Shown piece by piece: positions 20,776-49,930 of a DNA stretch of 64,000 nucleotides. The notes under the pieces are model-generated. The model worked only from the letters and a program-made list of their open reading frames with translations. It was not told the origin of the DNA and searched no databases. Within the stretch, counting starts at the first letter, position 1. Each line of letters begins with the position of its first letter. The position numbers and the translations under genes are program-made. This stretch comes from Amycolatopsis alba DSM 44262 (GTDB taxonomy: Bacteria > Actinomycetota > Actinomycetes > Mycobacteriales > Pseudonocardiaceae): positions 9,633,605 through 9,697,604 of the forward strand of contig NZ_KB913032.1 in assembly GCF_000384215.1 (NCBI RefSeq). The letters are read 5' to 3'.

Positions 20776-20869
20776 GTGTTCCAGGCAACCGTCGCCCGCT
20801 GCCGGGAACAACGGCCGATGTCTCATCCTTCTATGAGCGTGACTACTGGATCCGCGGAGGAGAAGACCG

Positions 20870-21763: not shown

Positions 21764-21777
21764 CCGTGCCGGGATGA

Positions 21778-32536: not shown

Positions 32537-33715
32537 ATGACACAGGACATCCGCGCTTTCTCGATCGACATCCCGCAGGCAGACCTCGACGACCTCGCCA
32601 CGCGCCTGGCCGCCACCCGCTGGCCGAGTGAACTGCCGGACGTCGGCTGGAGCCGGGGTGTGCCCGCCGGTTACCTCGCCGGACTCGCCGAGTACTGGCG
32701 CACCGGTTTCGACTGGCGGGCGCAGGAGGCCGCGCTCAACGCCCACCCGCAGTTCGTCACCACCATCGACGGCCAGCGCCTGCACTTCCTCCACGTACGC
32801 TCGCCGGAGCAGGACGCCACGCCGCTGGTCCTGCTGCACGGGTGGCCGGGCGGGGTGACCGACTTCCTCGACGTGATCGGGCCGCTGTCGGACCCGCGGG
32901 CGCACGGGGGAGACCCGGCCGACGCCTTCCACCTGGTGATCCCGTCCTTGCCGGGGTTCGGGTTCTCCACGCCGCTGGCCGGACCGGGAATGAGCGCCGC
33001 GAAAATGGCAGGCCTGTTCACCAGGCTGATGGCCGCGCTCGGCTACGAGCGGTACGGCGTGCACGGCTACGACACGGGTTCGTGGGTCGCGCCGGAGATC
33101 GGCAAGCAGGATCCGGAGCACGTGCTCGGCGTGCACCTCACCGCGATGATCACCTTCCCGATCGGTGTCGAGGGCGAACTGGACGACCTTCCCGAGGCCG
33201 ACCAGCGCCGCTGGGAGTCGATGCAGAACTTCAACGACGGCTACCTGCAGTGCAACTCCAAGCGTCCGCAGACGGTGGCCTACGGCCTGCACGACTCGCC
33301 CGCCGGTCAGCTCGCGTGGATCGTGGAGAAGTTCAAGGAACTGACCATGCCCGAAGACGCGCTGCCTGAGGAATGCGTGGATCGCGACCGCATGCTCGCC
33401 ACGATCTCGCTGTACTGGTTCACCGGCACCGCCGGTTCGGCCGCCCAGATCTACTACGAGGAGATTTCGGCGAACGACTGGAGCGGCGGCGAATCCGGTG
33501 ACTGGGGATCCGGTGACTGGAGCGGCGCTGCGGCGCCGACCGTGCCCACCGGGGTGCTCGTGTCCGCGCACGACGTGACCGTCCGCCGGTGGGCCGAGCG
33601 CGACCACCACATCGTGCACTGGACCGAACTCGGCCACGGCGGGCACTTCCTCGCCATGGAGGCCCCCGCCGCGCTGGCCGACGATATCCGTGTGTTCTTC
33701 CGGAAGGTGCGCTGA
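32537..33715 (+). CDS. Epoxide hydrolase family protein (EHN domain)
   Basis: A 392-residue protein of the microsomal-type epoxide hydrolase family. The N-terminal EHN domain ([20 protein letters not shown] through [20 protein letters not shown]) precedes an alpha/beta hydrolase core with oxyanion motif [12 protein letters not shown], nucleophile elbow [12 protein letters not shown] (Asp) and the catalytic His in ELGHGGHF. These enzymes open epoxides to diols; the substrate is unknown. The start ATG 32537 lies next to the palindrome. The following gene begins one base after its stop. Confidence 0.88.
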
Positions 33716-33716
33716 G

Positions 33717-34424
33717 ATGGGCGCCCGCGGGACCGCGCTGCTGAGCCCGCGGGCGCTCAACCGCGCCCTTCTCGGCAGGCAACTTCTCCTCGGCCGCGTC
33801 GATCTCGGGGTCGCCGAGGCGATCGAGCATCTCTTCGGGCTGAACGCGCAGGACCCGGATCTCGCGTATTTCGCGCTCTGGAACCGGCTCGAACGCTTCG
33901 AGATCCAGGACCTCACCGTCGCCATCGAGCGTGGTGTCCTTGTGCGGTCCACGATGATGCGGGCCACCCAGCACCTGATGTCGGCGGCCGACTTCCGGCT
34001 GGTCCGGCCGGCGCTGGCACCACTGTTGCGGCGGGTGCAGCGCAACGCCTTCGGCAGCCGCACCACCGGCGTCGACCTCGGCGAACTGGTCGCCGACACG
34101 GCCGAACTACTCGAGGGCAGCGGCGTCCTCACCCGGCCCGAGCTGGGACGGGCGCTCGCGCGAACCCGGCTCCTGCGGCACGGCCGCGCCGACGTCGTCG
34201 CGTTCGAACGCGCCGTGACCCGGCTCCCCGAAATCCGGTACTGCCACCACATCACCGGCAACTACGACTACCTGCTCCACATCGAAGTCGCCGACCTGCC
34301 CGCCTACGAGCACTTCCACGCCCACAGCCTGGCGGGCCTGCCCAGCGTGGCGGCCGTGACCAGCTACATCACCATGAAAACCCTCACCCCCGGCCCGCCG
34401 GAAAGCCGGGTCATTGAGACGTGA
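33717..34424 (+). CDS. Chimeric protein: truncated HTH_42 (AlkZ-like) domain joined to an Lrp/AsnC effector domain
   Basis: A 235-residue frame opening one base after the epoxide hydrolase stop. Residues 1-150 match the front of the winged-helix HTH_42 family, which includes DNA glycosylases such as AlkZ (LSPRALNRALLGRQLLLGRV, VEHLFGLNAQDP-like, TMMRATQHLMSAADFRLVRP). At about residue 150 the match stops. Residues 153-225 are a typical Lrp/AsnC ligand-binding domain (FERAVTRLPEIRYCHHITGN, YDYLLHIEVADLPAYEHF). Neither parent is complete: the HTH_42 protein lacks its C-terminal half and the Lrp part lacks its own helix-turn-helix. A deletion fusing two genes is the simplest origin. Confidence 0.75.
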   Translation: MGARGTALLSPRALNRALLGRQLLLGRVDLGVAEAIEHLFGLNAQDPDLAYFALWNRLERFEIQDLTVAIERGVLVRSTMMRATQHLMSAADFRLVRPALAPLLRRVQRNAFGSRTTGVDLGELVADTAELLEGSGVLTRPELGRALARTRLLRHGRADVVAFERAVTRLPEIRYCHHITGNYDYLLHIEVADLPAYEHFHAHSLAGLPSVAAVTSYITMKTLTPGPPESRVIET

Positions 34425-34497: not shown

Positions 34498-35265
34498 TCA
34501 GACGCCAAGGGCGTGGACCCCTCCGTCGACCATGATCATCGTTCCGGTCGTGGCCGGGAGCCAGTCCGACAGGAGCGCGCAGACGCTCCTGGCCGTCGGG
34601 CTGGCGTCTGTGCTGTCCCAGCCGAGCGGTGCCCGGTCACCCCAGTCGCGCTCGAAGTCCGAAGAGCCTGGGATCGACTTCGCGGCCATGGTCTTCATCG
34701 GGCCCGCGCTGACCAGGTTGACTCGAATGCCCTGCGGCCCCAGTTCCTTGGCCAGGTACCGGTTAACCGACTCCAGTGCGGCCTTCGCGACGCCCATCCA
34801 GTTGTAGGCCGGCCACGCGACGCGGGCGTCGAAGTCCATGCCCACGATCGACGAGCCACGGTCCAGCAGCGGCAGGCATGCTCTGGCCAGGGACATGAAC
34901 GAGTAGGCCGAGACTTCGACGGTGGTCTTGACGTCGCCGGCCGACGCGTCCAGGAACGGTGCTCCAACACAGCTCCGAGGTGCGAAGCCAATCGAGTGCA
35001 CCACACCGTCGAGGCCGTCGACGTGCTCATGGACCCGTCCGGCCAGGCTGTCCAGGTGCTTCTGGTTCGTGACGTCCAGCTCCAGCACCGGCACCGCTGC
35101 GGGCAGCCGCTTCGCGATGCGCTCGACCAGCGACACACGGCCGAAGCCGGTCAGCACTACCTGCGCGCCTTCCAGTTGCGCGATCCTGGCCGTGTGGAAG
35201 GCGAGCGAGCTGCCGGTGATGATGCCGGTGATCAGCAGGCGTTTGCCGTCAAGCAGTCCTGGCAC
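34498..35265 (-). CDS. InhA-like enoyl-ACP reductase
   Basis: A 255-residue enoyl reductase from GTG 35265, with TTGGAGG 5 bases upstream. It is close to mycobacterial Inh[30 protein letters not shown] (keeping the Ser at InhA position 94), [20 protein letters not shown] with the Tyr-Lys pair, [13 protein letters not shown] and [14 protein letters not shown]. It reduces trans-2-enoyl-ACP with NADH. As the last gene of the nine-gene operon it may serve chain building, or be a resistant copy of the housekeeping target. Confidence 0.88.
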
Positions 35266-35310
35266 GAATCCTCCAAGCCGTGGTCCGGTGAACCGGGAAG
35301 GCAACGGCGG

Positions 35311-36558
35311 TCAACGCAGGGATCGGATCACCGGGCTCGCGGCGACCAGTCCGGCACACGCCAGCACGGCGCCGCCGCAGATCAGGAACACCGCCGTGGT
35401 GCCGAACGGCAGCAGGATCCCGGCGACGACGTAGGAGAACGGGTCGAACGCCACCGTGGCCAGAACGACGAGGCTCATCACCCGGCCCAGCAGTTGCCTG
35501 GACACTCGCTCTTGCAAGGTGGCCACGATGACCACTCCGAGAAACGCGGACCCGAGACCGATGAGTGTGACGACCGCTGTCGCGGTGACCACGTCGGTGA
35601 CGACCGCGAGCCCGGCTGTTCCCGTGCCGATCGCCGCGACCCCGCCGACCACGGTCCAGCCGCGCCTGCCGGGTGGGCGCCATCCGGCGATCAGTGATCC
35701 TGCCAGCGACCCGGCGCCGAAACCGGAGAGCACGATGCCCAGAGATCCCGCTCCGCCGAGGCGTTGATCGGCGAGCACCGCGCCTCCCACAAGCACGGGG
35801 CCCACGACCGCGATGTTAATCACGGCGACGGCCGTCAGCAGCGCTCTCACGAGCGGTTCATGCCAGGCATATCCCAAACCCTCGCCGAGGGAATGCAAGC
35901 CGCCGAGTCGCTGGTCACCATCGACGGCGTCCGGACCGGCGCCTTCACCGAGTCGTGCCAGGCGGACGAGCGTGCCGAGGGCCAAGGCGGCCACGACGGC
36001 CACCGCCGTGATCCCAGCGAGCGCGGCGCCGAAGCCGACCGCAGCGATGACTCCGGCGGCCGCCGCAGGCCCGACGAGATCGCCCCCCGACTCCGCGCCC
36101 TGCACCAGCGCGTTGACCCGTGACAGCTTCTCGGTCGGTACGACGGCCGGCAGCAACGCCATGGCTGCCGGGAAGTACGCGGCGTCGGCCATGCCGAGCA
36201 ATCCGGCGAGAAGGGCGACGGTGGTCACCGATGGGGAGGTAAAGGTGATCACGGCACCAAGGGCGAGCAGGACGGCGACCCGAAGCCAGGAAGCCCAGGC
36301 CGCGACGCGAGCGGGATCCAGCCGGTCGGCCAGTACTCCCCCGGGAAGCAGGAGCACCGCGCGTGGCAGCGCCACCGCCACGAGAACGAGCCCGGTGGTG
36401 AGGCCGGGCTCCGAAAGTTCGAGCACGAAGAGGGTGAGCCAGGTCAGGAACAGCGCGTCGACCACGGCCGCCAAACCCTGACCCACGACCAGGCGGCGCA
36501 GCCGCGGGTCGCCGAGGGGTTCGCGGGGAAGGGAACGGGCGGGCGGCCCTGTCGTCAT
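35311..36558 (-). CDS. MFS exporter in biosynthetic operon
   Basis: A 415-residue transporter from ATG 36558 with GGGAG 7 bases upstream. It follows the DHA3-type pattern seen in small-molecule exporters: LAAVVDALFLTWLTLFVLEL, ALPRAVLLLPGGVLADRLDP (motif A), AAMALLPAVVPTEKLSRVNA and VQGAESGGDLVGPAAAAGVI. About 12 helices are predicted. It lies between an SDR gene and the InhA-like gene, 45-58 bp from each, so it is part of the operon and probably exports the product. Confidence 0.87.
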   Translation of the reverse strand: MTTGPPARSLPREPLGDPRLRRLVVGQGLAAVVDALFLTWLTLFVLELSEPGLTTGLVLVAVALPRAVLLLPGGVLADRLDPARVAAWASWLRVAVLLALGAVITFTSPSVTTVALLAGLLGMADAAYFPAAMALLPAVVPTEKLSRVNALVQGAESGGDLVGPAAAAGVIAAVGFGAALAGITAVAVVAALALGTLVRLARLGEGAGPDAVDGDQRLGGLHSLGEGLGYAWHEPLVRALLTAVAVINIAVVGPVLVGGAVLADQRLGGAGSLGIVLSGFGAGSLAGSLIAGWRPPGRRGWTVVGGVAAIGTGTAGLAVVTDVVTATAVVTLIGLGSAFLGVVIVATLQERVSRQLLGRVMSLVVLATVAFDPFSYVVAGILLPFGTTAVFLICGGAVLACAGLVAASPVIRSLR

Positions 36559-36616
36559 CGTGGGCTCCCGTGGATTCCGGTAGGAGGTGGCCTTGCCTAG
36601 GTCGGGCAGGTGTGCA

Positions 36617-37378
36617 CTATGCGATGTGTGTGCCCCCGTCGACCACCAGAGTGGTTCCGGTGACATAGGTCGCCGCGTCGGAGACGAGGAAGACCAGCGC
36701 GGCGGCGAGCTCTTCGGGCTGTCCGACGCGGCCGGAGAGCACTCTCGGCATCATCGCCTCGATGTAGCCCTCGTCGTAGCCGTCGGTCATCTCGGAGGTG
36801 AAAAAGCCCGGAGCGAGGGCATTCACGCGGATGCCCTTGCCAGGTGTCCACTGCTGGGCGAGATCGCGGGTGAGCCCGAGGATCCCGGCTTTCGACGCCG
36901 AGTAGGCGGCCTGCGGCAGACCACCCGTGACCAGCGCGAGGATGCTCGACACGTTGACGATGGCACTGCCGGGTCGCATTACCGCGCCTGCGGCCTGGGC
37001 CATCCAGTAGGAGCCGTTCAGATTGACGTCGATGACGTCGCGGAACTGCTCCGGTGTCTCCTCGACCGCGGGGTGTTCACTGCTGACCCCGGCGTTGTTG
37101 ACCAGGATGTCCACGCGCCCGAACTCCCGCACAGCCGCGTCGATCAGTGCGTGGCAGTCCTTCGGATCGGCCACGTCGGTACACACGGCGACGGCCCGGC
37201 GGCCGAGCTTCTCGACGGCCGCGCGCGTGGTCTCCAGCCTGTCGGTGCGCCGCGCTCCGAGGACGACGTCGGCACCGGCCTCGGCGACGGCGGTGGCGAA
37301 GGCGATGCCCAGCCCCGAGGACGCTCCGGTGACCACGGCGACGCGGCCGTCGATCCGGAACCGATCAAGGACGCTCAT
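36617..37378 (-). CDS. SDR oxidoreductase (3-ketoacyl reductase-like)
   Basis: A 253-residue classical SDR from ATG 37378 with AAGGAG 7 bases upstream. The motif order is intact: VVTGASSGLGIAFATAVAEA, the NNAGVSSEHPAVEE segment, NVSSILALVTGGLPQAAYSA with Ser, Tyr and SKAG Lys, then NALAPGFFTSEMTDGYD and the VDGGTHIA ending. It could reduce beta-keto thioesters on the ACP encoded next to it, or a later ketone. Its place in the operon favours a biosynthetic role. Confidence 0.87.
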   Translation of the reverse strand: MSVLDRFRIDGRVAVVTGASSGLGIAFATAVAEAGADVVLGARRTDRLETTRAAVEKLGRRAVAVCTDVADPKDCHALIDAAVREFGRVDILVNNAGVSSEHPAVEETPEQFRDVIDVNLNGSYWMAQAAGAVMRPGSAIVNVSSILALVTGGLPQAAYSASKAGILGLTRDLAQQWTPGKGIRVNALAPGFFTSEMTDGYDEGYIEAMMPRVLSGRVGQPEELAAALVFLVSDAATYVTGTTLVVDGGTHIA

Positions 37379-37433
37379 AGCCGTTCTCCTTGGAGGGAAG
37401 TCCATTCGTGCACGGCGTATCTCCCGAGAACGG

Positions 37434-37676
37434 TCACCGCTGGGAGGCGACGTAGCTCATCGCGTCACCGACGGTCCTCAGCTCCGCAACCTCGTCGTCG
37501 GGAATCCTCACCGCGAACCTGTCCTCCACCTGCACGGTGATCTCCACCATTGACAGGGAGTCGATGCCGAGATCGTCGGCAAACGACTTCTCCGGAGTCA
37601 CGTTGGCGCGGTCGAGACCGGTGACCTGTTCGACGATCTCGGCGATGTCGGCGAGGATGTCGGTGTTGCTGACCAC
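37434..37676 (-). CDS. Acyl carrier protein
   Basis: An 80-residue ACP from GTG 37676, with AAGGAG 7 bases upstream. The phosphopantetheine site is Ser40 in DDLGIDSLSMVEI, with helix 2 following as usual, and the ending DEVAELRTVGDAMSYV matches helix 4. It is free-standing, in the operon between the alpha-oxoamine synthase and the SDR genes. It probably carries the growing acyl chain for the ketosynthase and presents it to the oxoamine synthase or condensation protein. Confidence 0.93.
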   Translation of the reverse strand: MVSNTDILADIAEIVEQVTGLDRANVTPEKSFADDLGIDSLSMVEITVQVEDRFAVRIPDDEVAELRTVGDAMSYVASQR

Positions 37677-37733
37677 GGGCTTTCTCCTTGTCGGCCGGGC
37701 ATGCTCGATCAATGGGCGACCCTCGGCTGTACG

Positions 37734-38981
37734 TCAGAGCCCGAGACGCCGCCGGTAGATGAGGAGGGTGCGCAGGAAACCGTCCATCTGTGCCTCGGTG
37801 TGACCCGCATGGGGGAACAACCGCAGGAGCGCCTGGTTGCGCGAGACGGCCGGGTAGGAGAAGACGGGAACGAGGTAGCCGTCCTCGACGAACCACTCCC
37901 GCATCTGGAGCGCGGCGGCATCGGCGCCGATCGGCACCGAGAGCATGTACGACTCGGTCGGCGTCGTCATCGTGCCGATCGCATGCATCTGCCGCCGAAG
38001 GCGGGCGGCGTGTGCGAGGTAGTCGTCGACGATCTCCGGATGGTCGGCGAGGACGTCGATCGTGCGGTCGGCCAGGTACGCGGTGGGTGGCTGGATAGCG
38101 GCTGTGAACATCGAGGTGCCGGAAAGCAGTTCGAAGGCGTCGATCGCCGCCGCGGGCCCGGCAATCGCGCCGCCTTCCAGACCGATGGCCTTCGACAGGG
38201 ACACCATGACGAAGTCGGCGCGCTCCCTGATCGCCACCGCCTCCCGGGCATATGGACGGTTCTCGGCCCCGTAGACCATGAACCCGTTCGCGTCGTCGAT
38301 CATGCTGACAGCTCCGTGCCGGTCGCACTCGTCCAAGATCTCCACGATCGGCCCCATGGTGCCGTCGGCGGAATAAATACTCTCGGCGATCACCACGGTC
38401 TTGCGGCTCTGGATCCGGCCGAGGATGGCGGCCAGATCCGCGACGTCGTTGTGCCGGAACGCGTGGACGTTACGGCCGTAGCCGAGTCCTTCGAGCCCCT
38501 TCCAGATGCTCCAGTGGACGTCCCTGTCGACGACGAAGACGGTGTCGCGATTGCGTACTTCGATCCCGGTGTCGAAGTACGCGGAACTGCTCATGGCGTG
38601 GACGAATCCGATGTTGGCCAGGAGTCCGGTGGCGAAGCTGATGGCCCGCTCCTTGCCGGTGTGGCGGGCGATCGTCTCCTCCAGGACCTGATGCGGGCGG
38701 CAGATTCCCTGTGTCATCCGGGAACCGCTGGTGCTCAGGCCGTGGGCGATTGCCGCCTCGGCGAAGTGGCGCCGGGCCGGGACGTGGCGGTCCAGGTCGA
38801 GAAAGCTGATGCTGGCGAAGTTCACCAGCTCGCGCCCGTTGCGGACGATGGTCGGCCCGACGGGACCGTCCACCACCGGAGGACGGTATGCGGTGTCGTG
38901 GGTATTCGCCTCGACGAAAGCAGCGAAGGCCCACGGGGCCAGGCGATCCACGGACTGTGCGGAAGTGGAAGACGCAGTCAC
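37734..38981 (-). CDS. PLP-dependent alpha-oxoamine synthase (AONS/CqsA-like)
   Basis: A 415-residue fold-type I PLP enzyme from GTG 38981, whose GTGA overlaps the end of the condensation gene. Key features are STSGSRMTQGICRPHQVLEE, the FATGLLANIG segment, ESIYSADGTMGPI, DDANGFMVYG (Asp for the pyridine N) and the Schiff-base Lys in MVSLSKAIGLEGG. The family condenses acyl-CoA or acyl-ACP with an amino acid under loss of CO2 to give an alpha-aminoketone. Next to an ACP and a ketosynthase it is a likely chain-release enzyme. Its amino acid is not evident. Confidence 0.88.
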   Translation of the reverse strand: MTASSTSAQSVDRLAPWAFAAFVEANTHDTAYRPPVVDGPVGPTIVRNGRELVNFASISFLDLDRHVPARRHFAEAAIAHGLSTSGSRMTQGICRPHQVLEETIARHTGKERAISFATGLLANIGFVHAMSSSAYFDTGIEVRNRDTVFVVDRDVHWSIWKGLEGLGYGRNVHAFRHNDVADLAAILGRIQSRKTVVIAESIYSADGTMGPIVEILDECDRHGAVSMIDDANGFMVYGAENRPYAREAVAIRERADFVMVSLSKAIGLEGGAIAGPAAAIDAFELLSGTSMFTAAIQPPTAYLADRTIDVLADHPEIVDDYLAHAARLRRQMHAIGTMTTPTESYMLSVPIGADAAALQMREWFVEDGYLVPVFSYPAVSRNQALLRLFPHAGHTEAQMDGFLRTLLIYRRRLGL

Positions 38982-40918
38982 GATGACGTTTCTCCTCCGT
39001 GGTGGGCGCGGGGCGGAAAGGGCTCCAGAGCCGCAGCGAGGTGGCCGAGCGAGACTGTTCCGGCCAGCTCGTCCGCTGCGATCCCGGTGTAGCCGGACTG
39101 GCGCAGCAGCATCAGCAGACGAGGAATCTCGACCAGGGTGACCCCGTGGTCGGCGAGGCAACGGTTCATGTCGACCGAGCCAGGGTTGTCATAGGAGGGC
39201 TGCCGCGAATCGTCCGGAACGACGGCGGCCACAGCGGCGGCCAGAGCCCGTTCCGATGTCGTCACGGCCAGCCGTGACGACATCGGCGGGACGCTTGAGC
39301 CGCCGGTGGCGGTGCCGTGTTCGGCCGGGGACAGGATGTAGCGGCCTGGGGTGAGGAGACCGGGCACGTCGCCGAGGTGGTCCAGGACGTGCTGGTGTAG
39401 CTCGTCGATCGTCACGCCAGGAGTGACGCGGGCGCGCGCGACGAGGTGTGGTCGATCGCCTTCTCCCGAAGTGCCGCCGCTGGGCGTCACTGTCACATCG
39501 AGCACACCGGGGTGGCTCTGCAGCACGTCTTCGACCGTGGTCAGGCACGCCCATCCCTGCGGGGCGCGCCACCATCCGGACGCCGCCGGTGTGCGCGGGT
39601 CCGACAGGACCGGGCACTCGGCACCGCCGGCGAGCGCGTGCAGGAGACCACACAGGCGTTCGGGCAACGCCACCGCCTGCGCGGCGTCGAGCAGGTGATC
39701 CCCGACGGTGACGTCGAGGGTGATGAACCCCGCGTCGCGGCTGAAGTCGACGTAGAGGGTCTCGCAGGGCTCGTCAGGCGCGCTGCTGATCCAGGTGGCG
39801 TCCCCGCCCGGCGGAGTGGTCCGGGTGGGGACCAGGTATCCGCGGGGCCACGCATAGCAGTTGAATTCGATGGTGGGTATGGCAACGACACCGCGGCGCC
39901 GGTCCTGGCGGGACCAGGCGGCGACCAGTTCCGCGGGGCGGTACCGGCCGTGCCGGTAGCCCGCGGTGGACGCCGTCGCGACCGAGGCGACCACCTCACC
40001 GAACGCCGCGCCCGGTTGGAGGTCGATCTGGACCGGGACCGTCAGAGCCCGGACGTCGACGCTGGTGCGCAGAGCCGCCCGGGCTCGATTGGAGACCACC
40101 ACCGACGCGAGGAAACGATGCTCTCCGGTGCGGGTGGCGACCTCGTGGGCGAGCGCCGCGAGCACGACGATCTCCGGACTGGCCCGATGACGCCGGGCGA
40201 CGCGGTCAAGGTCGTCATACGCCTCCACCGAGCGGTATTGAAGACGGTGGCGCCCCTTGCCGTCGGCGATGCCGCCGAACGGGGCCAGCACGCCGGTGGG
40301 GTTGTCCGCGAGACGTGCGAGCCACTCGCACTCCGACAGGCGGGCGCGTTCCAGATTCTGCTCGGCGATAGCGTCGAGCGGGTGGAGGGCTGTTTCCGCC
40401 GGTCCGTCGGCGCCGCGAAGCCGGTCGTGCAACTGGTCGAGCAGCACCGCCAGCCCCCACCCGTCGATCATGACGTGGTGGGCGGCGATCAGGACCGCGC
40501 GCGGCTTTCCCGCTTCGAGCAGCACTCTGGCGAGCCAGGGCGGATTCCGCTCGGGGTCGATCGGGCGGGCCGCCAGTGCCGCCGTGGCGGCTTCCAAGGT
40601 GCCGGCATCGACAGCGGGGACGTCCACGTGATCGATCGGCAGCGGCGCCCAGTCCGGGCGATGGACGCGTTGTACCGGGCGGAGCGGGCCGATGGTGCTG
40701 CGCAGCGCTTCATGCCGCGCGGTCAGGGACGCGAGCGCCATGTGCACGTCGCTGACGGTGGCAGGGGGCGGGACGTGGCAGTGGTCAGCGAGCGGCGTCG
40801 GGTTCACCCGCCGTGGTGCGGGGATGGTGCGTTCGAACCAGTGCCACTGCTGAACCCACGACAGCGGCCCACTGCGGATGACGGTGGCGGGATCCGGAGT
40901 CGCCTTCACGGCCGTCAC
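38978..40918 (-). CDS. NRPS-type condensation protein with A-domain tail and degenerate carrier-like end
   Basis: A 646-residue protein from GTG 40918. Residues about 15-430 form a condensation domain with the active-site motif HHVMIDGWG (His147-Gly153). The region around 470-560 (TTVEDVLQSHPGVLDVTVTP, VTIDELHQHVLDHLGDVPGL) resembles the C-terminal subdomain of an adenylation enzyme. The last 60 residues look like a carrier domain (LADHGVTLVEIPRLLMLLRQ), but Thr594 sits where the phosphopantetheinylated Ser belongs. It may make an amide or ester bond in the pathway. No complete adenylation core is in this polypeptide. It is translationally coupled to the next gene. Confidence 0.8.
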   Translation of the reverse strand: MTAVKATPDPATVIRSGPLSWVQQWHWFERTIPAPRRVNPTPLADHCHVPPPATVSDVHMALASLTARHEALRSTIGPLRPVQRVHRPDWAPLPIDHVDVPAVDAGTLEAATAALAARPIDPERNPPWLARVLLEAGKPRAVLIAAHHVMIDGWGLAVLLDQLHDRLRGADGPAETALHPLDAIAEQNLERARLSECEWLARLADNPTGVLAPFGGIADGKGRHRLQYRSVEAYDDLDRVARRHRASPEIVVLAALAHEVATRTGEHRFLASVVVSNRARAALRTSVDVRALTVPVQIDLQPGAAFGEVVASVATASTAGYRHGRYRPAELVAAWSRQDRRRGVVAIPTIEFNCYAWPRGYLVPTRTTPPGGDATWISSAPDEPCETLYVDFSRDAGFITLDVTVGDHLLDAAQAVALPERLCGLLHALAGGAECPVLSDPRTPAASGWWRAPQGWACLTTVEDVLQSHPGVLDVTVTPSGGTSGEGDRPHLVARARVTPGVTIDELHQHVLDHLGDVPGLLTPGRYILSPAEHGTATGGSSVPPMSSRLAVTTSERALAAAVAAVVPDDSRQPSYDNPGSVDMNRCLADHGVTLVEIPRLLMLLRQSGYTGIAADELAGTVSLGHLAAALEPFPPRAHHGGETSS

Positions 40919-40919
40919 T

Positions 40920-42182
40920 TCAGACTGTCCGGACCACGAGCGCGGCGTTGTGGCCGCCGAAGCCGAACGAGTTGCTGAGAGCGATGCGCATCCCCGGATG
41001 ATGTTGCGTGCGGTGGGGCACGAAGTTGATGTCCGGGTCGATCGGCTCATCGCAGTTGACGGTCGGCGGGACGTCGCCCGTGCGGAGGGCCTGGATCGAA
41101 GCGACGAGCTCCACCGCCCCGGCGGCGCCGATCATGTGCCCGGTCATCGATTTGGTGGAGCTCACCGGGATCCGGGTGACCCGGTCCCCCAGCACCTGTC
41201 GCAGGACGGCCGTCTCGGTGATGTCGTTCAGCAGCGTTCCGGTGCCGTGCGCGTTGACGTAGTCGACCTCCGCCCCCGTGATCCCCGCGTCGCGCAGCGC
41301 CGCCTCGACGGCCAGGCGTGCGCCCCTGCCCTCCGGATGCGGTGCGGTCCAGTGATGAGCGTCGGAACTCGCTCCGTACCCCGTGAGTTCGGCCAGCGCC
41401 GTCGCCCCTCGCCGGTCGGCCACGTCCGCCGCCTCCAGCACCGCCACGGCGGCGCCCTCGCTCATCACGAACCCGTCGCGGTGCGCGTCGAAGGGCCGGC
41501 ACGCCGCGGCCGGGTCGTCGTTGCGTTTGGACAACGCGCGGGCGTTCCCGCTGCCCGCGAGGTCCACGGTGGTGACGCATGCGTCGGCGCCACCGGCGAG
41601 GACGATGTCGGCTTCCCCGTGGCTGATCATGCGCATCGCCGCGCCCACGGCGTCGGCACCGCTGGCGCACGCCGTGCTCTGGGCGCGGCTGGGCCCCTGC
41701 GTACCGAGCCGCATGCTGATTTCGCCGGCGGCGCTGTCCATGGCCGTCGTGACCTGAGTGAACGGGCTGATGGACCGCGGTCCCTTGTCGCGCAGCCTGT
41801 TCGCGGCGCGGTAGATCGATCCGACCGGGCCGTAGCCGCTGCCGATGATCACGGCGACCCGCGGCGCCACGTGATCGTCGATGACGAGCCCCGCGTGCTC
41901 GCACGCTTCCAGCGCGGCGGCGAGGGCGTACTGCGCGTACGGATCGGCGCGACGGCTGACCATCGCAGGCATGTAGCGGCTGGGGGTGAATCCGCGGACC
42001 TGGCCGCCGATCCGGACCGCGAGATCGGTGACGTCGATAGCCTCGACCTTGTCGATACCGCTGCGCCCGGCCAGCATCGCCGTCCAGGTCTCGTCGACGC
42101 TGTGGCCCAGCGGCGTCACAGCCCCGTATCCGGTGACCATCACCCGACGCCTCGCGCCCGGTCGTTCTGCTGCTTCCGTCAC
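40920..42182 (-). CDS. FabF-type beta-ketoacyl-ACP synthase
   Basis: A 420-residue KASII-like ketosynthase from GTG 42182. The catalytic triad is present: Cys172 in QSTACASGADAVG, His in VNAHGTGTLLND and the Lys-His of SSTKSMTGHMIGAAG. The glycine-rich end SNSFGFGGHNAALVV is intact. It elongates acyl chains by decarboxylative condensation with malonyl-ACP. It overlaps the upstream ThDP gene by four bases and lies one base from the condensation gene. No acyltransferase or chain-length factor is present, so extender supply is probably from primary metabolism. Confidence 0.9.
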   Translation of the reverse strand: MTEAAERPGARRRVMVTGYGAVTPLGHSVDETWTAMLAGRSGIDKVEAIDVTDLAVRIGGQVRGFTPSRYMPAMVSRRADPYAQYALAAALEACEHAGLVIDDHVAPRVAVIIGSGYGPVGSIYRAANRLRDKGPRSISPFTQVTTAMDSAAGEISMRLGTQGPSRAQSTACASGADAVGAAMRMISHGEADIVLAGGADACVTTVDLAGSGNARALSKRNDDPAAACRPFDAHRDGFVMSEGAAVAVLEAADVADRRGATALAELTGYGASSDAHHWTAPHPEGRGARLAVEAALRDAGITGAEVDYVNAHGTGTLLNDITETAVLRQVLGDRVTRIPVSSTKSMTGHMIGAAGAVELVASIQALRTGDVPPTVNCDEPIDPDINFVPHRTQHHPGMRIALSNSFGFGGHNAALVVRTV

Positions 42183-43873
42183 TGGGGGACCACCTCGGCG
42201 TCGCGGATGGGCGGGGCGATGTCGTCGGGGGCGACCGGGACCATGAGCACGGCGGTGCCTCCCTGTGCGCAGAACCGCCGCGCGGCCAGGACTTCCTCGG
42301 TCAGCGTGCATTTGTCGCGGAGCACCCGGCAACGGATGTCCGGCCCGTCCACCACGGGTGGCGGCTGACCCAGGCGGACGAACGAGTGGCGTCCGGCGTC
42401 GAGACCGAGGCGGGCGCGCTGCGTGTCCAGCCAGCCGTAGCCGCCGTTGCAGAGCACCACATACAGAACACCGCCGTGGGCGGGCGCGGCGGCGGCGATG
42501 TCCGCGCGGGCCGCGACGAAAGCTCCGTCACCGACGAACGCGGTCACCTCGTGGTACGGGGCCGCCAGCTTGACCCCGATGGCCGCGGCAGCCCCGAAGC
42601 CCAGCGGGGTCTGCTCCGACGGCGCGATGGAACCGCCACCGGCGTGGAAGGGGAAGCAGTAGGACCACATGTCCTGCAACCCGTTCTCCTGGACCAGGAT
42701 CCGGCGCTCGCCGCCGGTGGCGTCGAGTGCGGCGAGCAGTTCGGCGATACGGATTTCCGGCAGCGCCGCCGCGCGGGCCAGTTCCTCTTCCACTTCGAGC
42801 GACATGGCCTTGCGGGCGGCGGCGATCTCGTCTGCCCATCCCTTGGCTGCGGCGGGCCCGGACTTAGGGTCCCCCTCCAGCGCCCGCGACCAGCCGAGCA
42901 CGGCGTGGCGGGCGTCTCCGAGCACTCGCGGGCCCGGGAATTCGGCGGACAGCCCGCCGGGATCGACGTTGACCTGCACCACCGGGACCGGGGGCCAGGG
43001 TGTCCCGCCTTCGGCGACCGTCTCCTCGAGCCGTCCGGCGAGCGACACCACGAGGTCACACGACGACCACAGCTCACGGGCAGGGGCAGCGGCGTAAAGT
43101 CCTGCCACACCGCAGAAAAGCGGGTTGCGCTCGTCGACGGCACCGCGGCCGGACGCGGTGGTGAAGAGCGCCGCGCCGAGGTGTTCGGCGAAGCGCTCCA
43201 CCATGCCGTCGTCGTTGTGGTGCCGCATTCCCCCGCCCACCAGTACCAGCGGCCGGCTGCTCGTGCGGATCGCCGCGAGTGCCGGTCCCGGCGTCACGGA
43301 GAGGGAGTCGAGCGCCAACGGTTCCGGTCGCGTCGGCCGGGGCCGGGCGACCACGATCTCCGTCGCGCGCACGTCATCGGGTATCTCCAGGTACACGGGT
43401 CCGGCGGGAGGTCCCAGTGCCCGGGTCAAGGCCGTGACCGTCGCGGGGACGACCCGGTCGGGATGCCCCACCCGGTGCGCCCACTGCACGAGAGGCGTGA
43501 CCACGGAGATCTGGTCGAATTCCTGGAATCCACCGCTGCCCCGGCGTCGTTCGGCCACACCGGCTGCGAGCACGAGGACAGGGGCGCCGGACTCCCGCGC
43601 CTCCAGCAGTCCCGTAGCCGCGTGCGTGACCGCCGGCCCCTTTCCCAGCGCGCAGACGGCGAGCCTGCCCGACTGCATCGCGTAGCCGGTCGCCATGTAC
43701 ATCGCGTTCCGCTGATCACGGCACGGCACCAGGAAAAGGCCGACGGCGTCGAGGGCGCGGAGCAACTCCAGATCGTCTCCGGGCAGCCCGAAGCAGGTGT
43801 CCACCTCGTTCGCCACCAGCACGTCGACGATCGCGGACCACGCGTCGGCGTACCGTTCGCCCACCTGATTCAC
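42179..43873 (-). CDS. ThDP-dependent enzyme, acetolactate synthase/benzaldehyde lyase-like
   Basis: A 564-residue thiamine-diphosphate enzyme. The three-domain plan is clear: the Pyr domain (VANEVDTCFGLPGDDLELLR), a central domain (RPLVLVGGGMRHHNDDGMVE) and the PP domain with GDGAF and N-containing CNGGYGW for Mg-ThDP. Where the activating Glu normally sits, in a HEQ-type motif, the sequence reads CRDQRNAMY, so Asp53 replaces Glu. Enzymes of this group join aldehydes or keto acids to acyloins, or decarboxylate keto acids. The aldehyde-forming gene upstream overlaps it by ATGA. Activity with Asp is uncertain. Confidence 0.85.
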   Translation of the reverse strand: MNQVGERYADAWSAIVDVLVANEVDTCFGLPGDDLELLRALDAVGLFLVPCRDQRNAMYMATGYAMQSGRLAVCALGKGPAVTHAATGLLEARESGAPVLVLAAGVAERRRGSGGFQEFDQISVVTPLVQWAHRVGHPDRVVPATVTALTRALGPPAGPVYLEIPDDVRATEIVVARPRPTRPEPLALDSLSVTPGPALAAIRTSSRPLVLVGGGMRHHNDDGMVERFAEHLGAALFTTASGRGAVDERNPLFCGVAGLYAAAPARELWSSCDLVVSLAGRLEETVAEGGTPWPPVPVVQVNVDPGGLSAEFPGPRVLGDARHAVLGWSRALEGDPKSGPAAAKGWADEIAAARKAMSLEVEEELARAAALPEIRIAELLAALDATGGERRILVQENGLQDMWSYCFPFHAGGGSIAPSEQTPLGFGAAAAIGVKLAAPYHEVTAFVGDGAFVAARADIAAAAPAHGGVLYVVLCNGGYGWLDTQRARLGLDAGRHSFVRLGQPPPVVDGPDIRCRVLRDKCTLTEEVLAARRFCAQGGTAVLMVPVAPDDIAPPIRDAEVVPQ

Positions 43874-46512
43874 CGCCCACTCACCGCGACGGGCGCACCC
43901 GCCGGGAGAGTCCGCGCCGCGGCCTGCGACATGAGCAGTGGTTCGGCACGCCGCTCGCCGCCGTAGGAGAGGTAGTTCGCCCTCATCCCGAACCCGCCGA
44001 AGGGATGGTTGCCGTTTTCGGCGTCGAGCAGTGTGTGGTTGACACAGGTTTGGTGGTGCTTCGACAGGACTTCCACCGTCTCCGGGTCGTTGCCGTAGAC
44101 CATCGCTCCCAGCGCGCGTTCGCTGAAATAGGAGCTCGACAACCGCTCACGCAGCCGCCTGGCACCCGGATAGGCCACGACGTTGAACACCGGGGCGAAC
44201 ATCTCGTCCAGGGGGATCTTGTCGTCGAAGTCCCACAGCAGCACGGTCGGCTCGATCCGGCGGGACAGCAGATCGATGCGACCGCCGTGCCGGATGTGAT
44301 TCACGTGCCGCACCAAGTAGTCCGAGCAGCGCACCAGTGCCGAGTCGTAGTAGATCGGGCCGTAGTCGACGGCGGGATCGCTGTTCTGCCCGAAACGCAG
44401 CGAAGCCAGTTCAGCGGACAGCACTCCGACGAACTCGTCGGTGCGGCGCTGCGGCGAGAACACGACATCGGGACCGAAACAGTCTTGACCCGAGTTGTAG
44501 AGCCGGATTCTCGCGACGTCATGAGCGGCGCGCGGGAGGTCGGCGTCGGGTGCGATGACGAAGGGGTTGATGCCGTTGCCGAAGAAAAGAAAAAGCTGGT
44601 CTTCCGCCAGCCCGTCGCGGATCGTCTCGGCATTGGAGTAGTCACCGGTGAAGACGACGAGATCCGCCTCGCGTACCGGTCCCGTCACGAACTTGCGCTG
44701 ACTGAGGTCGAAAAGATCGAGTGGCAGACCGTGAATCGGCGCCAGCAGCGCGTGCAAGCGTTCCAGCTGGCTCTTGATCTGAGCGGACGGGCGAAAGGTG
44801 ATCTCGTCGATGTAGAGAGACGCCACAAGCAGGTACAGCGCATAGGAATAGAGCGGGATGTTGGAGGGCATGAACACAGCGGCGCGAGGCACCCGGCCTG
44901 GCCGGACCCGGCCGATCTCCTCTTCCGCTCCGTCGAGGGTGGCGAGGAACGAGCGGATCTCCGCGCTCGCGGTGTGATGAGGCGAGATCTCGGTGAGGAT
45001 CGCCATCACCGCAGCGTCGTGCTCGGCCACGTGCCGTCGCACCGCACGCAGCGCGTCAAGACGGTCGGCGAAGGGGACGCGGTAGTCGGCCACGTCGACG
45101 GCCGCGGCGGTGATCGTGGCAGGTGGCCTGGGCAATGAGGTCATGGCGATCTTTTCCAGAACGGCCAGGTTGGGCTTACCGGTGTTCGTGAGCGGCAGCG
45201 CGGGAAGCACGACGATGTGGTCGGGCTGCTCGTAGCGAGCGAGCACGGAATGCAGCACCTGTTTCCAGTGCGCGAATCCATGGGCGTCGGGGTCGGCGAT
45301 GACGAACACCAGACGACAGCCCAGACGCTCGTCGGGGACAGCGACGACCTCTGTCTGCGCACCGGCCGACTCGGCCCGCTCGGCGAGGTGATCGGGATAA
45401 AGGGTGTGGCCGTCGCGGTGCACGGCGTGCTTGCGCCCGACCGGGAAGACGCGGCCGGCGTCGTCGAGCGTCCCGATGTCGCCGGTCCGGTGAACCGGAC
45501 CCGAAACCGGGACGATCTCACCGTCGTCGCCCAGGTGACCGGTCATCAGGCCGCCACTGCGAACCACGATCTCGCCGAGCCTGCCGGGGGGAAGCGCGGC
45601 GCCGTCCTCGTCGTGGATTTCGACGAGGACACCGGGCAGCGGTGTGCCGCACCCGACCGGATCGGACGGAGGCGCCAGCGCGATGTTTCCCACTTCGGTC
45701 GCTCCGTAGCCGTCGAGCAGATGCTTGCCGGTGACGGCGTGGAATCGGGCCGCCAGGGTGCGCCCCAGCGGCGCGCCGCCCACGCACCAGGCTCGGACCG
45801 TCTTCAGCGCGTTCGCCAGAACGGGCCGACGGTCGAACAAGTTGAGCAGGCTGTAATACGTCGACGGGGCCCCGTCGACGACGGAGAGGCCATGGTCCGC
45901 ACCGACCGCGAGAACGTGATCCAGGCGCGTGGCCGGCCCATAGATCACCAGCGTGCCTCCACTCAGCCACCAGGAGAGCACAAGCGACAGACCATACTGG
46001 TGGGAATACGGCAGAACGGGCAGGAAGACATCGGCCGGCCGGTAACCCATTCGTTCCGCACTGAGAGTGATGTTGTCCAGAATCGAGCGACCGGAGCGGA
46101 CGACGCCCTTCGGGTTACCGGTCGTCCCCGACGACCACGAGATCGCGGCGTCCTGGCGCCGCGCCCAGGCCGCGAGATCGGGAACGCCCCCCGTGCTCGC
46201 CGCGGGCCGCGTCACCGCGGTGTCATCGGTACCACCGTTGACTTCGAACATCACGCGCGCCTGCGCGCGGATCCGCGCCCGCTGCGCCGGAATGGCGCGA
46301 TGATCGGCCAGGACCACAGACGCGTCGAGGTGGACAAGCGCCAGCAGATCGACGACCCACTCCAGGGAATTGGCCCCGCTCATCATCACCCGCGAACCGG
46401 GTTCGATGCCGCGGCGGGCAAGGACTTCGGCGGCCGCGAATACGCGAGCCACGATTTCATCGGTCTCCCAGATGTACCCCTCTGGCGAGATCAAGCGCTT
46501 GAAGGCGGGCAA
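43870..46512 (-). CDS. Fused acyl-AMP ligase and aldehyde dehydrogenase-type acyl reductase
   Basis: An 880-residue fusion, the first gene of the operon. It starts at TTG 46512 behind GAGGAG. Residues 1-455 are an ANL ligase: WSSGTTGNPKGVV (about 127-138), LDGYGATEVG and the A10 Lys446 in LTNTGKPN. Residues about 470-880 are an aldehyde dehydrogenase-type reductase, with nucleophile Cys678 in YNSGQDCFGPDV and the C-terminal HPFGGFGM. A natural reading is activation of a carboxylic acid followed by NAD(P)H reduction to an aldehyde, comparable to the LuxE-LuxC logic, without a carrier domain between the parts. Confidence 0.85.
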   Translation of the reverse strand: MPAFKRLISPEGYIWETDEIVARVFAAAEVLARRGIEPGSRVMMSGANSLEWVVDLLALVHLDASVVLADHRAIPAQRARIRAQARVMFEVNGGTDDTAVTRPAASTGGVPDLAAWARRQDAAISWSSGTTGNPKGVVRSGRSILDNITLSAERMGYRPADVFLPVLPYSHQYGLSLVLSWWLSGGTLVIYGPATRLDHVLAVGADHGLSVVDGAPSTYYSLLNLFDRRPVLANALKTVRAWCVGGAPLGRTLAARFHAVTGKHLLDGYGATEVGNIALAPPSDPVGCGTPLPGVLVEIHDEDGAALPPGRLGEIVVRSGGLMTGHLGDDGEIVPVSGPVHRTGDIGTLDDAGRVFPVGRKHAVHRDGHTLYPDHLAERAESAGAQTEVVAVPDERLGCRLVFVIADPDAHGFAHWKQVLHSVLARYEQPDHIVVLPALPLTNTGKPNLAVLEKIAMTSLPRPPATITAAAVDVADYRVPFADRLDALRAVRRHVAEHDAAVMAILTEISPHHTASAEIRSFLATLDGAEEEIGRVRPGRVPRAAVFMPSNIPLYSYALYLLVASLYIDEITFRPSAQIKSQLERLHALLAPIHGLPLDLFDLSQRKFVTGPVREADLVVFTGDYSNAETIRDGLAEDQLFLFFGNGINPFVIAPDADLPRAAHDVARIRLYNSGQDCFGPDVVFSPQRRTDEFVGVLSAELASLRFGQNSDPAVDYGPIYYDSALVRCSDYLVRHVNHIRHGGRIDLLSRRIEPTVLLWDFDDKIPLDEMFAPVFNVVAYPGARRLRERLSSSYFSERALGAMVYGNDPETVEVLSKHHQTCVNHTLLDAENGNHPFGGFGMRANYLSYGGERRAEPLLMSQAAARTLPAGAPVAVSGR

Positions 46513-47833: not shown

Positions 47834-48331
47834 GTGATCGTGAAACCGTTCGAACAGATCGTGGTCCAGTTCGGGCCGATGGTGCTGCGGGTGTGCCGGG
47901 CCGTGCTGGGTCCGGTGGACGCGGAGGACGCCTGGTCGGAGACGTTCCTGGCCGCGTTGAAGGCGTATCCTGGGCTGCCCGCCGACGCGAATGTCGAAGC
48001 GTGGCTGGTCACGATCGCGCACCGTAAGGCCATCGACGTCACCAGGGCCCGTACCCGGCGGGCTGTTCCGGTCGAGGAGGTCCCGGAGCGGCCAAGCGCC
48101 ACCGGGCGGCCGGAAGCCTGGGCTGGCGATCTGTGGGACGCACTGGCGCGGTTGCCGGACAAACAGCGCGTGGCCGTCGCCTATCACTACCTCGGCGGGC
48201 TGCCTTACCGCGAGATCGCCGAGATCACCGGGGGCAGTACCGATGCTGCCCGTCGGGCGGCGGCCGACGGCGTCAAATCCCTCAGAGCCACCTACCGGCG
48301 CCCCGCCGACAGGGAAGGAGCGACATCATGA
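47834..48331 (+). CDS. ECF-type RNA polymerase sigma factor
   Basis: A 165-residue sigma factor from GTG 47834; a second GTG is two codons on. Region 2 is visible as FEQIVVQFGPMVLRVCRAVL, EDAWSETFLAALKAYPGL and WLVTIAHRKAIDVTRARTRR, and region 4 as LPDKQRVAVAYHYLGGLPYR then EIAEITGGSTDAARRAAADG. No anti-sigma gene follows; instead the stop overlaps the methyltransferase gene in ATGA. It heads the alkylation-repair operon and may drive it in response to damage. Confidence 0.88.
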   Translation: MIVKPFEQIVVQFGPMVLRVCRAVLGPVDAEDAWSETFLAALKAYPGLPADANVEAWLVTIAHRKAIDVTRARTRRAVPVEEVPERPSATGRPEAWAGDLWDALARLPDKQRVAVAYHYLGGLPYREIAEITGGSTDAARRAAADGVKSLRATYRRPADREGATS

Positions 48332-48945
48332 TGACCATGTCCGACGACCAGGCCAGAGACTTGTTCGACCCGTTGCCGGACGTCGATCCGGACGCGACGC
48401 GGCGGCTGCATGAGCGGCTGGTCGCGGCGGCTCAGCGTGACGGGCTGCTCGACCTGGCTTATCGCACCCTGGACACTCCGGTTGGCACGCTGTTGCTGGC
48501 CGCTACCGAGGCGGGCCTGGTCCGGGTCGCCTACGGCCGGGAAGACCACGACGCCGTGCTGGCGAAGCTGGCCGACACGGTGAGCCCGCGGATCCTGCGC
48601 GCTCCGGCGCGGCTGGACGCTGTGGCCCGGCAGCTGGAGGAGTACTTCGGCGGCGGACGCCGGACCTTCGACGTTCCCCTGGACTTCCGGCTGTCGAAGG
48701 GGTTTCGGCGCGCGGTGCTGGCGCATCTGCCGGAGATCGGGTACGGCGACACCGAAAGCTACGCCCAGGTCGCCGCCGCGGCCGGAAGTCCGAGGGCGGT
48801 GCGTGCGGTCGGGACCGCGTGTGCGACCAACCCGCTGCCGGTCGTGGTGCCGTGCCACAGGGTCGTGCGCTCCGACGGGTCGTTCGGCGGCTACGTCGGC
48901 GGCGAGGACGCCAAGCGGACGTTGCTGACGCTGGAGGCGGCGTGA
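48328..48945 (+). CDS. ogt: Methylated-DNA-protein cysteine methyltransferase (first copy)
   Basis: A 205-residue O6-alkylguanine transferase. ATG 48328 has AGGGAAGGAG 7 bases upstream and overlaps the sigma gene. The acceptor motif VVPCHRVVRSDG is intact, as are the helix-turn-helix around ESYAQVAAAAGSPRAVRAVG and the GGYVGGEDAKRTLLTLE tail. A 45-residue extension precedes the TPVGTLLLAATEAGL domain. It removes alkyl groups from DNA in a single-turnover reaction. A second, shorter copy lies at 53678. Confidence 0.93.
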   Translation: MMTMSDDQARDLFDPLPDVDPDATRRLHERLVAAAQRDGLLDLAYRTLDTPVGTLLLAATEAGLVRVAYGREDHDAVLAKLADTVSPRILRAPARLDAVARQLEEYFGGGRRTFDVPLDFRLSKGFRRAVLAHLPEIGYGDTESYAQVAAAAGSPRAVRAVGTACATNPLPVVVPCHRVVRSDGSFGGYVGGEDAKRTLLTLEAA

Positions 48946-49655
48946 ACAGGTTCGAGAAGCGGGTCGCCGCGGCCGACTGGGCCGCGGTGACCGCCGAGGT
49001 CGACGACTACGGTTGCGCTCTGCTACCACGACTGCTGACTCCGGCCGAGTGCGCGAAGATCGTCGCTCTGTGGGACAAGGTCGAACGGTTCCGGGCGACG
49101 GTGAATCTGCGTCGGCACCGTTTCGGGGACAACGGCGACTACCGTTACTTCGCCGAGCCGGTCCCGGATCCGGTTCAGGCGCTGCGCCAGGCGCTGTATC
49201 CGCGGCTGCTGCCCATCGCCCAGGACTGGTACGCCAAGCTGGGCCGTGAAGCGGAGTGGCCGTCCACGTTGGAGGAGTGGCTGGCGATCTGCCACGGTGC
49301 CGGGCAGACACGGCCGACGCCGATCCTGCTGCGGTACGAGACGGGCGGCTGGAACGCGCTGCACCGAGATCTTTACGGCGACAAGGTGTTCCCTCTGCAG
49401 GTGGTGATCAACCTCAACCAGCCGGGCACGGACCACACCGGCGGGGAGTTCTTGCTGGTCGAACAGCGGCCACGGGCGCAGTCGCGTGGCACCGCGACGT
49501 TGATCCCGCAAGGGCACGGCTTGGTGTTCACCACCCGCGACCGGCCGGTTCGCTCCGCGCGTGGCTGGTCGGCTTCGCCGGTGCGCCATGGTGTGTCGGC
49601 GGTCCGGTCGGGTTCGCGGCACACACTCGGCCTCGTGTTCCACGACGCCACCTGA
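48942..49655 (+). CDS. 2-oxoglutarate-Fe(II) oxygenase, Oxygenase-NA type (first copy)
   Basis: A 237-residue protein starting at GTG 48942, overlapping the previous stop by GTGA. It belongs to the family described as oxygenases acting on damaged DNA (PF09859). Visible landmarks are FRATVNLRRHRFGDNGDYRY, the iron-binding HxD in NALHRDLYGDKVFPLQVVIN, GGEFLLVEQRPRAQSRG and the distal His/Arg region RHGVSAVRSGSRHTLGLVFH. The double-stranded beta helix is complete. A paralogue of similar length is at 52648. Context strongly supports DNA or nucleotide dealkylation. Confidence 0.87.
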   Translation: MNRFEKRVAAADWAAVTAEVDDYGCALLPRLLTPAECAKIVALWDKVERFRATVNLRRHRFGDNGDYRYFAEPVPDPVQALRQALYPRLLPIAQDWYAKLGREAEWPSTLEEWLAICHGAGQTRPTPILLRYETGGWNALHRDLYGDKVFPLQVVINLNQPGTDHTGGEFLLVEQRPRAQSRGTATLIPQGHGLVFTTRDRPVRSARGWSASPVRHGVSAVRSGSRHTLGLVFHDAT

Positions 49656-49930
49656 TGAGGACCTACACGCTGATCGGCGCGGACGGCAACCCGTATGAGA
49701 GTGCCGAACCGGGAACGCTGGGCGGGCATCGCCGGAGCAAGCTTTACGGCCGTCTGGACTGCCCGGCGGCGTTGCGCGCGATCGCCCGCGGCGGCTACGT
49801 GCGGCATCGGGTGTTCTTCGCCGACGAAGCCACCGCCCTCGCCGCGGGCTACCGCCCCTGCTGTTCCTGCCTGCCCGAGAAGTACCAGGTCTGGAAGCAC
49901 AAGCAGACCGGAAAGACACCACGACCATGA
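49655..49930 (+). CDS. Stand-alone Ada metal-binding domain protein
   Basis: A 91-residue protein whose ATG shares one base with the preceding stop. It opens with a small strand (RTYTLIGADGNPYESAEPG) and contains the Ada metal-binding core: RLDCPAALRAIARGGYVRHR, VFFADEATALAAGYRPCCSC. In E. coli Ada this zinc domain takes methyl groups from phosphotriesters and thereby becomes an activator. Here it stands alone without an AraC domain, so it may act as a methylation sensor for the operon. Four Cys are visible. Confidence 0.85.
   Translation: MRTYTLIGADGNPYESAEPGTLGGHRRSKLYGRLDCPAALRAIARGGYVRHRVFFADEATALAAGYRPCCSCLPEKYQVWKHKQTGKTPRP

Follow-up and report, generated by a model that had tools for sequence, protein, structure and literature searches.

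A nine-gene operon-like unit of Amycolatopsis alba that may join an acyl-chain cassette to an alpha-oxoamine synthase release cassette

Nine genes on the minus strand of a 64,000 bp stretch of the Amycolatopsis alba DSM 44262 genome (hereafter the window; NZ_KB913032.1, positions 9,633,605 to 9,697,604, i.e. 9.63-9.70 Mb of a single 9.81 Mb contig) may constitute a compact specialised-metabolite cluster composed of two joined cassettes. The first would load a starter unit and elongate it to an acyl chain bound to an acyl carrier protein (ACP). The second would release the chain through an alpha-oxoamine synthase (AOS), a condensation protein and a short-chain dehydrogenase/reductase (SDR), and the product would be exported by a transporter of the major facilitator superfamily (MFS). 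We assign this reading, which is based on sequence comparison, a probability of about 0.45.

The nine genes occupy window positions 34498-46512 and contain no internal stops. With start codons that we chose on the basis of homology and overlap, the spacings from gene 1 to gene 9 are -4, -4, +1, -4, +57, +55, +58 and +45 bp, in agreement with an earlier reading made from the letters alone (the sequence-only reading), which had described nine same-strand genes with 4-bp overlaps or gaps of 1-58 bp. AGGAG- or GGAG-like sequences are present upstream of several of the start codons. Judged by its layout, the nine-gene unit is real and operon-like. The family names proposed in the same reading agree with Pfam and NCBIfam, and that of the first gene could be refined to a fusion of an AMP-ligase with a protein of the aldehyde dehydrogenase (ALDH) fold. 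Among the best NCBIfam matches (at most 25 per protein), cut-offs were reached by generic FabI, ACP and FabF models only.

Five of the genes would form the first cassette. Gene 1 (43870-46512; 880 aa, TTG start; Pfam AMP-binding and Aldedh), named FUS here, encodes the predicted AMP-ligase/ALDH-fold acyl reductase or dehydrogenase fusion. Gene 2 (42179-43873; Pfam TPP_enzyme_N/M/C) encodes a thiamine diphosphate (ThDP)-dependent enzyme of the acetolactate-synthase superfamily in which Gln54 replaces the catalytic Glu. Gene 3 (40920-42182) encodes a FabF-type ketosynthase (KS) that scores above the TIGR03150 cut-off and has the Cys-His-His residues, and gene 6 (37434-37676; Pfam PP-binding, above the NF002147 cut-off) an ACP with an intact DSL serine. 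Gene 9 (34498-35265) encodes an InhA-type enoyl-ACP reductase that is, according to model score, tree position and residue 215, a diverged duplicate of the housekeeping copy. The second cassette would consist of gene 5 (37734-38981), encoding an AOS of the class I/II aminotransferase fold and BioF/serine palmitoyltransferase type, assigned to a DDANG subfamily on its solved relatives and motif; gene 4 (38978-40918; Pfam Condensation), encoding a condensation-domain protein that stands alone and whose C-terminal tail is degenerate; and gene 7 (36617-37378), encoding an SDR that resembles FabG and gluconate 5-dehydrogenase in Pfam and NCBIfam, with no NCBIfam cut-off reached among the matches listed. 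Gene 8 (35311-36558; Pfam MFS_1) encodes the predicted exporter. Of a type II fatty acid synthesis (FAS-II) set the nine genes thus include KS, ACP, SDR and InhA, and Pfam detected no dehydratase among them.

From the gene content, gene order and conservation, together with the changed motifs and the InhA duplication described below, we infer the following chemical steps, their direction and the kind of product. The favoured starter would be a derivative of a 2-oxo acid, which the ThDP enzyme would decarboxylate to an aldehyde. The non-hydrolytic ALDH half of FUS would convert this aldehyde into an acyl thioester, and its ligase half would activate an acid. The activated acyl group would then be placed on the ACP and elongated by the KS, and the chain could be saturated by a ketoreductase and a dehydratase, drawn from the SDR or from primary metabolism, with InhA acting as the enoyl reductase. 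For release, the AOS would condense acyl-ACP with an amino acid under loss of CO2 to yield an alpha-aminoketone, which the condensation protein would couple to another unit, acyl or aminoacyl; the SDR might reduce the ketone and the MFS protein would export the product. In support of this arrangement, the active-site motifs of the KS, the ACP, the pyridoxal phosphate (PLP)-lysine region of the AOS and the condensation domain are all kept.

Two catalytic motifs, one in the ThDP enzyme and one in the AOS, are changed throughout the family, and neither change is shared by paralogues in the same genome. For the motif counts of FUS, the ThDP enzyme, the AOS and the carrier-like Thr mentioned below, we kept sequences with at least 38% identity, at least 75% coverage and an E value of 1e-30 or better. 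The ThDP enzymes have R-D-Q-R where their relatives have R-H-E-Q, and the Gln was found in 46 of 46 sequences (44 loci), down to 42% identity. The 11 ThDP relatives in the same genome have Glu (10) or Asp (1) at this position, and Glu is present in all five alignments with solved relatives. Hence, the gene 2 family lacks the catalytic Glu of the N-terminal domain that marks enzymes of the acetolactate-synthase type. In ThDP enzymes this Glu activates the cofactor. The ALDH half of FUS retains an invariant Cys678 (54/54 sequences from 52 loci; Actinocrispum and Nakamurella were entered twice), and all 54 sequences have Phe or Tyr at the position of the Glu that serves as general base in hydrolytic ALDHs. 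Because the Cys is kept and the Glu is replaced, this half is probably acyl-transferring rather than acid-producing.

The second change affects the AOS, which has the BioF/serine palmitoyltransferase fold and the PLP lysine: its LSK[AS][IV]GLEGG-type motif was found in 23 of 23 sequences, one of which reads FSKSVGLEGG. Its best solved relatives are ALAS and serine palmitoyltransferase, and models of the latter were matched as well. However, the His of the D-[DE]-[AS]-H motif is replaced by Asn, so that all 25 sequences (24 loci) read D-D-A-N-G. The DDANG pattern was also present in 111 of the 120 AOS homologues among the matches listed, the other nine giving no pattern match. Five AOS paralogues were found in the same genome, and the four that could be aligned all keep the His. 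Since two of them also carry Asp in second place, it is the change from His to Asn that is distinctive. The DDANG-type subfamily reaches beyond the actinobacteria, with members in cyanobacteria and myxobacteria at 44-47% identity.

The ACP has its DSL serine motif in 19 of 19 sequences. As the sequence-only reading had it, gene 4 encodes a condensation protein (HHxxxDG in 21/21 sequences), to which must be added an extra C-terminal part that, as read by eye only, contains a remnant of an adenylation subdomain and a carrier-like tail in which Thr occupies the presumed position of the carrier Ser (23/23 sequences from 22 loci). The best KS paralogue in the same genome is only 43% identical, which disfavours the idea that the KS is a resistance copy.

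The sequence-only reading had suggested a search for the same gene order elsewhere, and such order was indeed found. A scan of one genome per species yielded 23 loci. In 20 of these the first gene is 71-83% identical, the hosts being Streptomyces (18), Actinocrispum and Solihabitans; the other three are Nakamurella, at 45%, and two loci that match the ligase part only (23-28%). The order FUS-ThDP-KS-C-AOS-ACP-SDR-MFS (C, condensation protein), with all eight genes detected, is present in 13 of the 20 close loci. In the remainder, the contig stops before the MFS gene (L028), or no SDR (L025 and L026), no ACP (L031 and L034) or neither KS nor ACP (L023, S. rimosus) was found, and S. bluensis (L040) has a variant without MFS in which the condensation protein is present as fragments only. 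The S. bluensis variant (6756-21794) has in addition MaoC, a further MabA, two genes of the arginase family and an InhA placed with the Actinocrispum InhA. Within the genus of the window a relative of the first gene was detected in 6 of 80 genomes, and a close one in only two, the window's own and G083 (81%). In G083 the order of the operon is complete for all nine genes, InhA included, and InhA was not found within the stretches read of the eight-gene Streptomyces loci. The widespread core therefore comprises eight of the nine genes, with InhA outside it. The recurrence of the order in G083 and in 13 of 20 close loci indicates that it is more than chance. Flanks are not conserved, no further gene family being present in more than four of the homologous loci; set and order are thus kept across distant hosts while the surroundings differ. 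Spread by plasmids was considered and set aside, as no plasmid record encoding the ThDP enzyme was found at E 1e-60 (a comparison that may not cover the records closest to the genome of the window). S. olivoreticuli ATCC 31159 is among the carriers, and a connection with bestatin was considered on account of this strain; no link was found in the open-access literature searched.

More distant relatives show in which company the first cassette occurs. Of 390 genomes of the family, 29 have a FUS relative with an E value no higher than 1e-150, and stretches around most of these were combined with the earlier loci into a set of 57, which differ in length and come in many cases from near relatives. 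The set includes the window and three loci (L196-L198) that were fetched because they hold KS or InhA. Relatives of AMP-ligase, ALDH, ThDP enzyme and KS occur together in 38 of the 57 loci. Neighbours are LanKC-like lanthipeptide synthetases in 15, InhA in 13, diiron-type proteins in 11 and GNAT proteins in 10; without the three fetched loci the counts for InhA and LanKC are 10/54 and 13/54. Six of the 15 LanKC loci have the full block (J079, L146, L147, L148, L156 and L197), five lack the ThDP enzyme, three lack both ThDP enzyme and KS, and that of S. rimosus has no ALDH in the stretch read. Four of the six (L146, L147, L148 and L156, all from genus g57 genomes) share a tight diiron-FUS-ThDP-KS-MabA-InhA array divergent from LanKC and GNAT. 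In G033 a non-ribosomal peptide synthetase (NRPS) starts ~30 bp past the end of the KS match, and seven loci (L150-L155 and L157) have putative extra AMP-binding-like matches (26-31%). G086 has an AOS at 57% identity and a FemAB/GNAT-type gene. In G257, a ligase/ALDH/ThDP set at 48-52% precedes condensation-AOS-ACP-SDR genes at 66-88% (L143), and a KS adjoins a second InhA ~5 Mb away (L198). We read G257 as a natural recombinant of a divergent ligase/ALDH/ThDP set and window-like condensation-AOS-ACP-SDR genes, and this arrangement indicates that the two cassettes can separate.

Second loci in S. rimosus (L196) and Streptomyces sp. SDr-06 (L197) contain ThDP enzyme, KS, InhA, ACP, a diiron protein, a class III LanKC and an arginase-family gene. 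Their AMP-ligase is a gene of its own, as is the ALDH in SDr-06, and they are probably lipid-lanthipeptide hybrids. Arginase-family neighbours are thus found in S. bluensis (two genes), S. rimosus and SDr-06. A DDAH-like gene is present in L136, and G081 has two genes that look PRMT-like by eye, Pfam giving a weak PrmA match to one of them only. These neighbours hint at a guanidine-bearing starter in some of the relatives. The window's ThDP enzyme resembles a 5-guanidino-2-oxopentanoate decarboxylase model below the cut-off, as one among many models. Passages of two papers (PMC10435860, PMC10373908) describe lipolanthines as carrying a guanidino fatty acid.

The occurrence of ligase/reductase-ThDP-KS relatives beside lanthipeptide synthetases, NRPS or another AOS makes the block look like a portable acyl-chain cassette, and because the same kinds of chain-making genes stand at different exits, acyl-ACP is the preferred product of the cassette. 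We therefore put forward, tentatively and with somewhat less than even confidence, that a portable actinobacterial cassette (AMP-ligase/ALDH fusion, Glu-less ThDP enzyme, KS, and sometimes MabA and InhA) provides fatty acid synthesis with an unusual starter, which may come from an amino acid, and feeds at least three exits: lanthipeptides, an NRPS, and a DDANG-type AOS acting with a free-standing condensation protein. In this scheme the operon described here would represent the AOS version, and its product a new class of aminoketone lipids.

Several observations weigh against the two-cassette reading. Part of the block is missing from the stretch read in 19 of the 57 loci: FUS stands alone with LanKC in L106, L138 and L142, and the ThDP enzyme was not found in the stretches of L144, L145, L154 and L159-L161. 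Nakamurella and L104 deviate from the ligase motif SSGTTGxPKG. Neither KS nor ACP is strictly needed in cis, as the close S. rimosus locus has neither and two others, L031 and L034, have no ACP. Moreover, decarboxylase activity of the ThDP enzyme is not assured, since the usual Glu is absent, and the fused AMP-ligase would fit the reverse, reductive direction equally well.

This last point leads to the alternative that survives best, which we nevertheless consider unlikely. The fusion would reduce a carboxylic acid to an aldehyde in the manner of LuxE/LuxC or GriC/GriD, and the ThDP enzyme would either form an acyloin from the aldehyde and a 2-oxo acid or extend it by one carbon to a 2-hydroxyacyl thioester, with AOS and condensation protein acting on another part of the molecule. 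It draws on the fusion of an AMP-ligase to a non-hydrolytic ALDH half, and on the best solved relatives of the ThDP enzyme, which include BbmA, 2-hydroxyacyl-CoA lyase/synthase and acetolactate synthases with nearly equal scores (the PDB names BbmA and CsmA left no trace in the open-access literature searched). However, a KS does not take an acyloin as substrate, and an acyloin is no evident donor for the NRPS and lanthipeptide neighbours of the relatives; the operon would also have two chain-release systems. For these neighbours an acyl thioester would be the natural hand-over, which favours a role in chain building. Accordingly, of the fatty-acyl-derived aminoketone or acyloin product proposed in the sequence-only reading, lipid-type biosynthesis stands and the acyloin has become the less likely form.

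The InhA copy bears on a further alternative, which would be compatible with the two-cassette reading and which we regard as doubtful: that it protects the host against a product inhibiting InhA-type enoyl-ACP reductases. InhA is the target of isoniazid. The operon InhA is 82% identical to the host's housekeeping InhA, whose gene follows mabA, whereas the KS is so much further from its best paralogue; its gene also adjoins that of the exporter. It scores 423 bits against the FabI model NF005908 (cut-off 299) and 372 bits against the InhA model NF040631, below the cut-off of 430. In a tree of 66 InhA sequences, in which housekeeping status was assigned by similarity (mabA adjacency was looked at for L002 only), the window and G083 copies group with the housekeeping InhA of their own genus, the S. 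bluensis cluster copy stands beside the Actinocrispum InhA, the g57 and G081 copies lie elsewhere, and Nakamurella has a long branch of unsure placement. The nine labelled cluster copies need five label changes, at least four on well-supported branches, each being in principle a gain or a loss; 21 of the 66 sequences carry no label, and some of these (second copies of S. rimosus, SDr-06 and G257) were later found beside a KS. InhA thus appears to have joined related clusters separately at least four times.

Residue 215 (M. tuberculosis numbering), which we take to line the acyl pocket, is Phe in all 27 housekeeping sequences compared, and Ser, Ala, Ser, Pro or Gly in four of the five cluster lineages. 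These data point to repeated recruitment of InhA and to changes close to the acyl pocket, both of which count in favour of resistance. Against resistance, Nakamurella keeps Phe215, order-level housekeeping sequences have Ser in two cases (and Met in one), only one InhA was found in 14 of the 20 host genomes searched, and MabA, an unlikely target, was recruited together with InhA in five loci, although this may reflect no more than mabA and inhA moving as a pair. Because MabA accompanies InhA in these five loci, a MaoC dehydratase is present in S. bluensis and most host genomes searched have a single InhA, the operon copy is probably the enoyl reductase of the pathway rather than a resistant target. 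With MabA and MaoC beside InhA, a FAS-II cycle would be almost complete. Should the reading proposed here hold, the fact that InhA was captured again and again would allow one to ask directly whether the product targets fatty acid synthesis or simply draws on it.

A primary or envelope lipid (a sphingoid-like base or ceramide-like lipid) is a very improbable product: the AOS matches serine palmitoyltransferase models and structures, and an SDR and an acyl-transfer fold are present, but the cluster occurs in only 2 of 80 genus genomes, its flanks are not conserved, it includes an MFS exporter, and its relatives are mixed with peptide systems. Hydroxamates (lipoxamycin, neoenactin) came into consideration because the cluster is frequent in streptoverticillia and a diiron protein occurs in relatives, but were dropped as Pfam found no N-oxygenase among the nine genes.

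In agreement with the sequence-only reading, which knew of no pathway with this exact gene set, we found no characterised cluster with it in the open-access literature (subscription papers and cluster databases were outside the scope of the search). The ligase/reductase, ThDP, KS and InhA relatives beside class III lanthipeptide synthetases and GNAT proteins suit putative hybrids of the lipolanthine type. The operon itself, however, has an AOS and a condensation protein instead; window positions 24501-56512 gave no match to LanKC or another lanthipeptide synthetase, the enzyme that a lipolanthine cluster would require. With serine palmitoyltransferase, BioF and CqsA the AOS shares fold and PLP-lysine region but not the motif His, and its use of acyl-ACP is predicted. 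Prodigiosin-type pathways employ an AMP-ligase, a ThDP enzyme, a KS and an AOS, the same kinds of enzymes acting on acyl-carrier intermediates, but domain order and fusion differ in the operon and the PigJ model scores far below its cut-off. In the LuxE/LuxC and GriC/GriD carboxylic acid reductases an AMP-ligase works with a non-hydrolytic ALDH-fold reductase. FUS pairs the folds of the same two activities, but within a single fused protein, whose partners are a Glu-to-Gln ThDP enzyme and a KS. Mycobacterial-type FAS-II (mabA-inhA, kasA, acpM) has counterparts of InhA, KS, ACP and SDR, but those of the operon are dedicated copies in a patchy, mobile-looking cluster, and its KS is not close to the host's own.

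Relative to the sequence-only reading, the InhA duplicate, the two altered catalytic motifs and the eight-gene core are additions. If correct, the reading proposed here would define a widespread lipid-priming cassette whose ThDP enzyme has lost the textbook catalytic Glu, a new way of ending a fatty chain as an aminoketone, and an unexplored family of natural products, predictable from sequence, in many Streptomyces and some Amycolatopsis.

Finally, genes resembling those for DNA alkylation repair border the operon at either end; they had no counterpart in the scanned homologous loci. The lower flank (32537-34424) has an AlkZ-like/AsnC-type open reading frame and an epoxide hydrolase gene, and the upper flank (48133-51092) genes for an O6-methylguanine methyltransferase, a damaged-DNA oxygenase and a methyladenine glycosylase.

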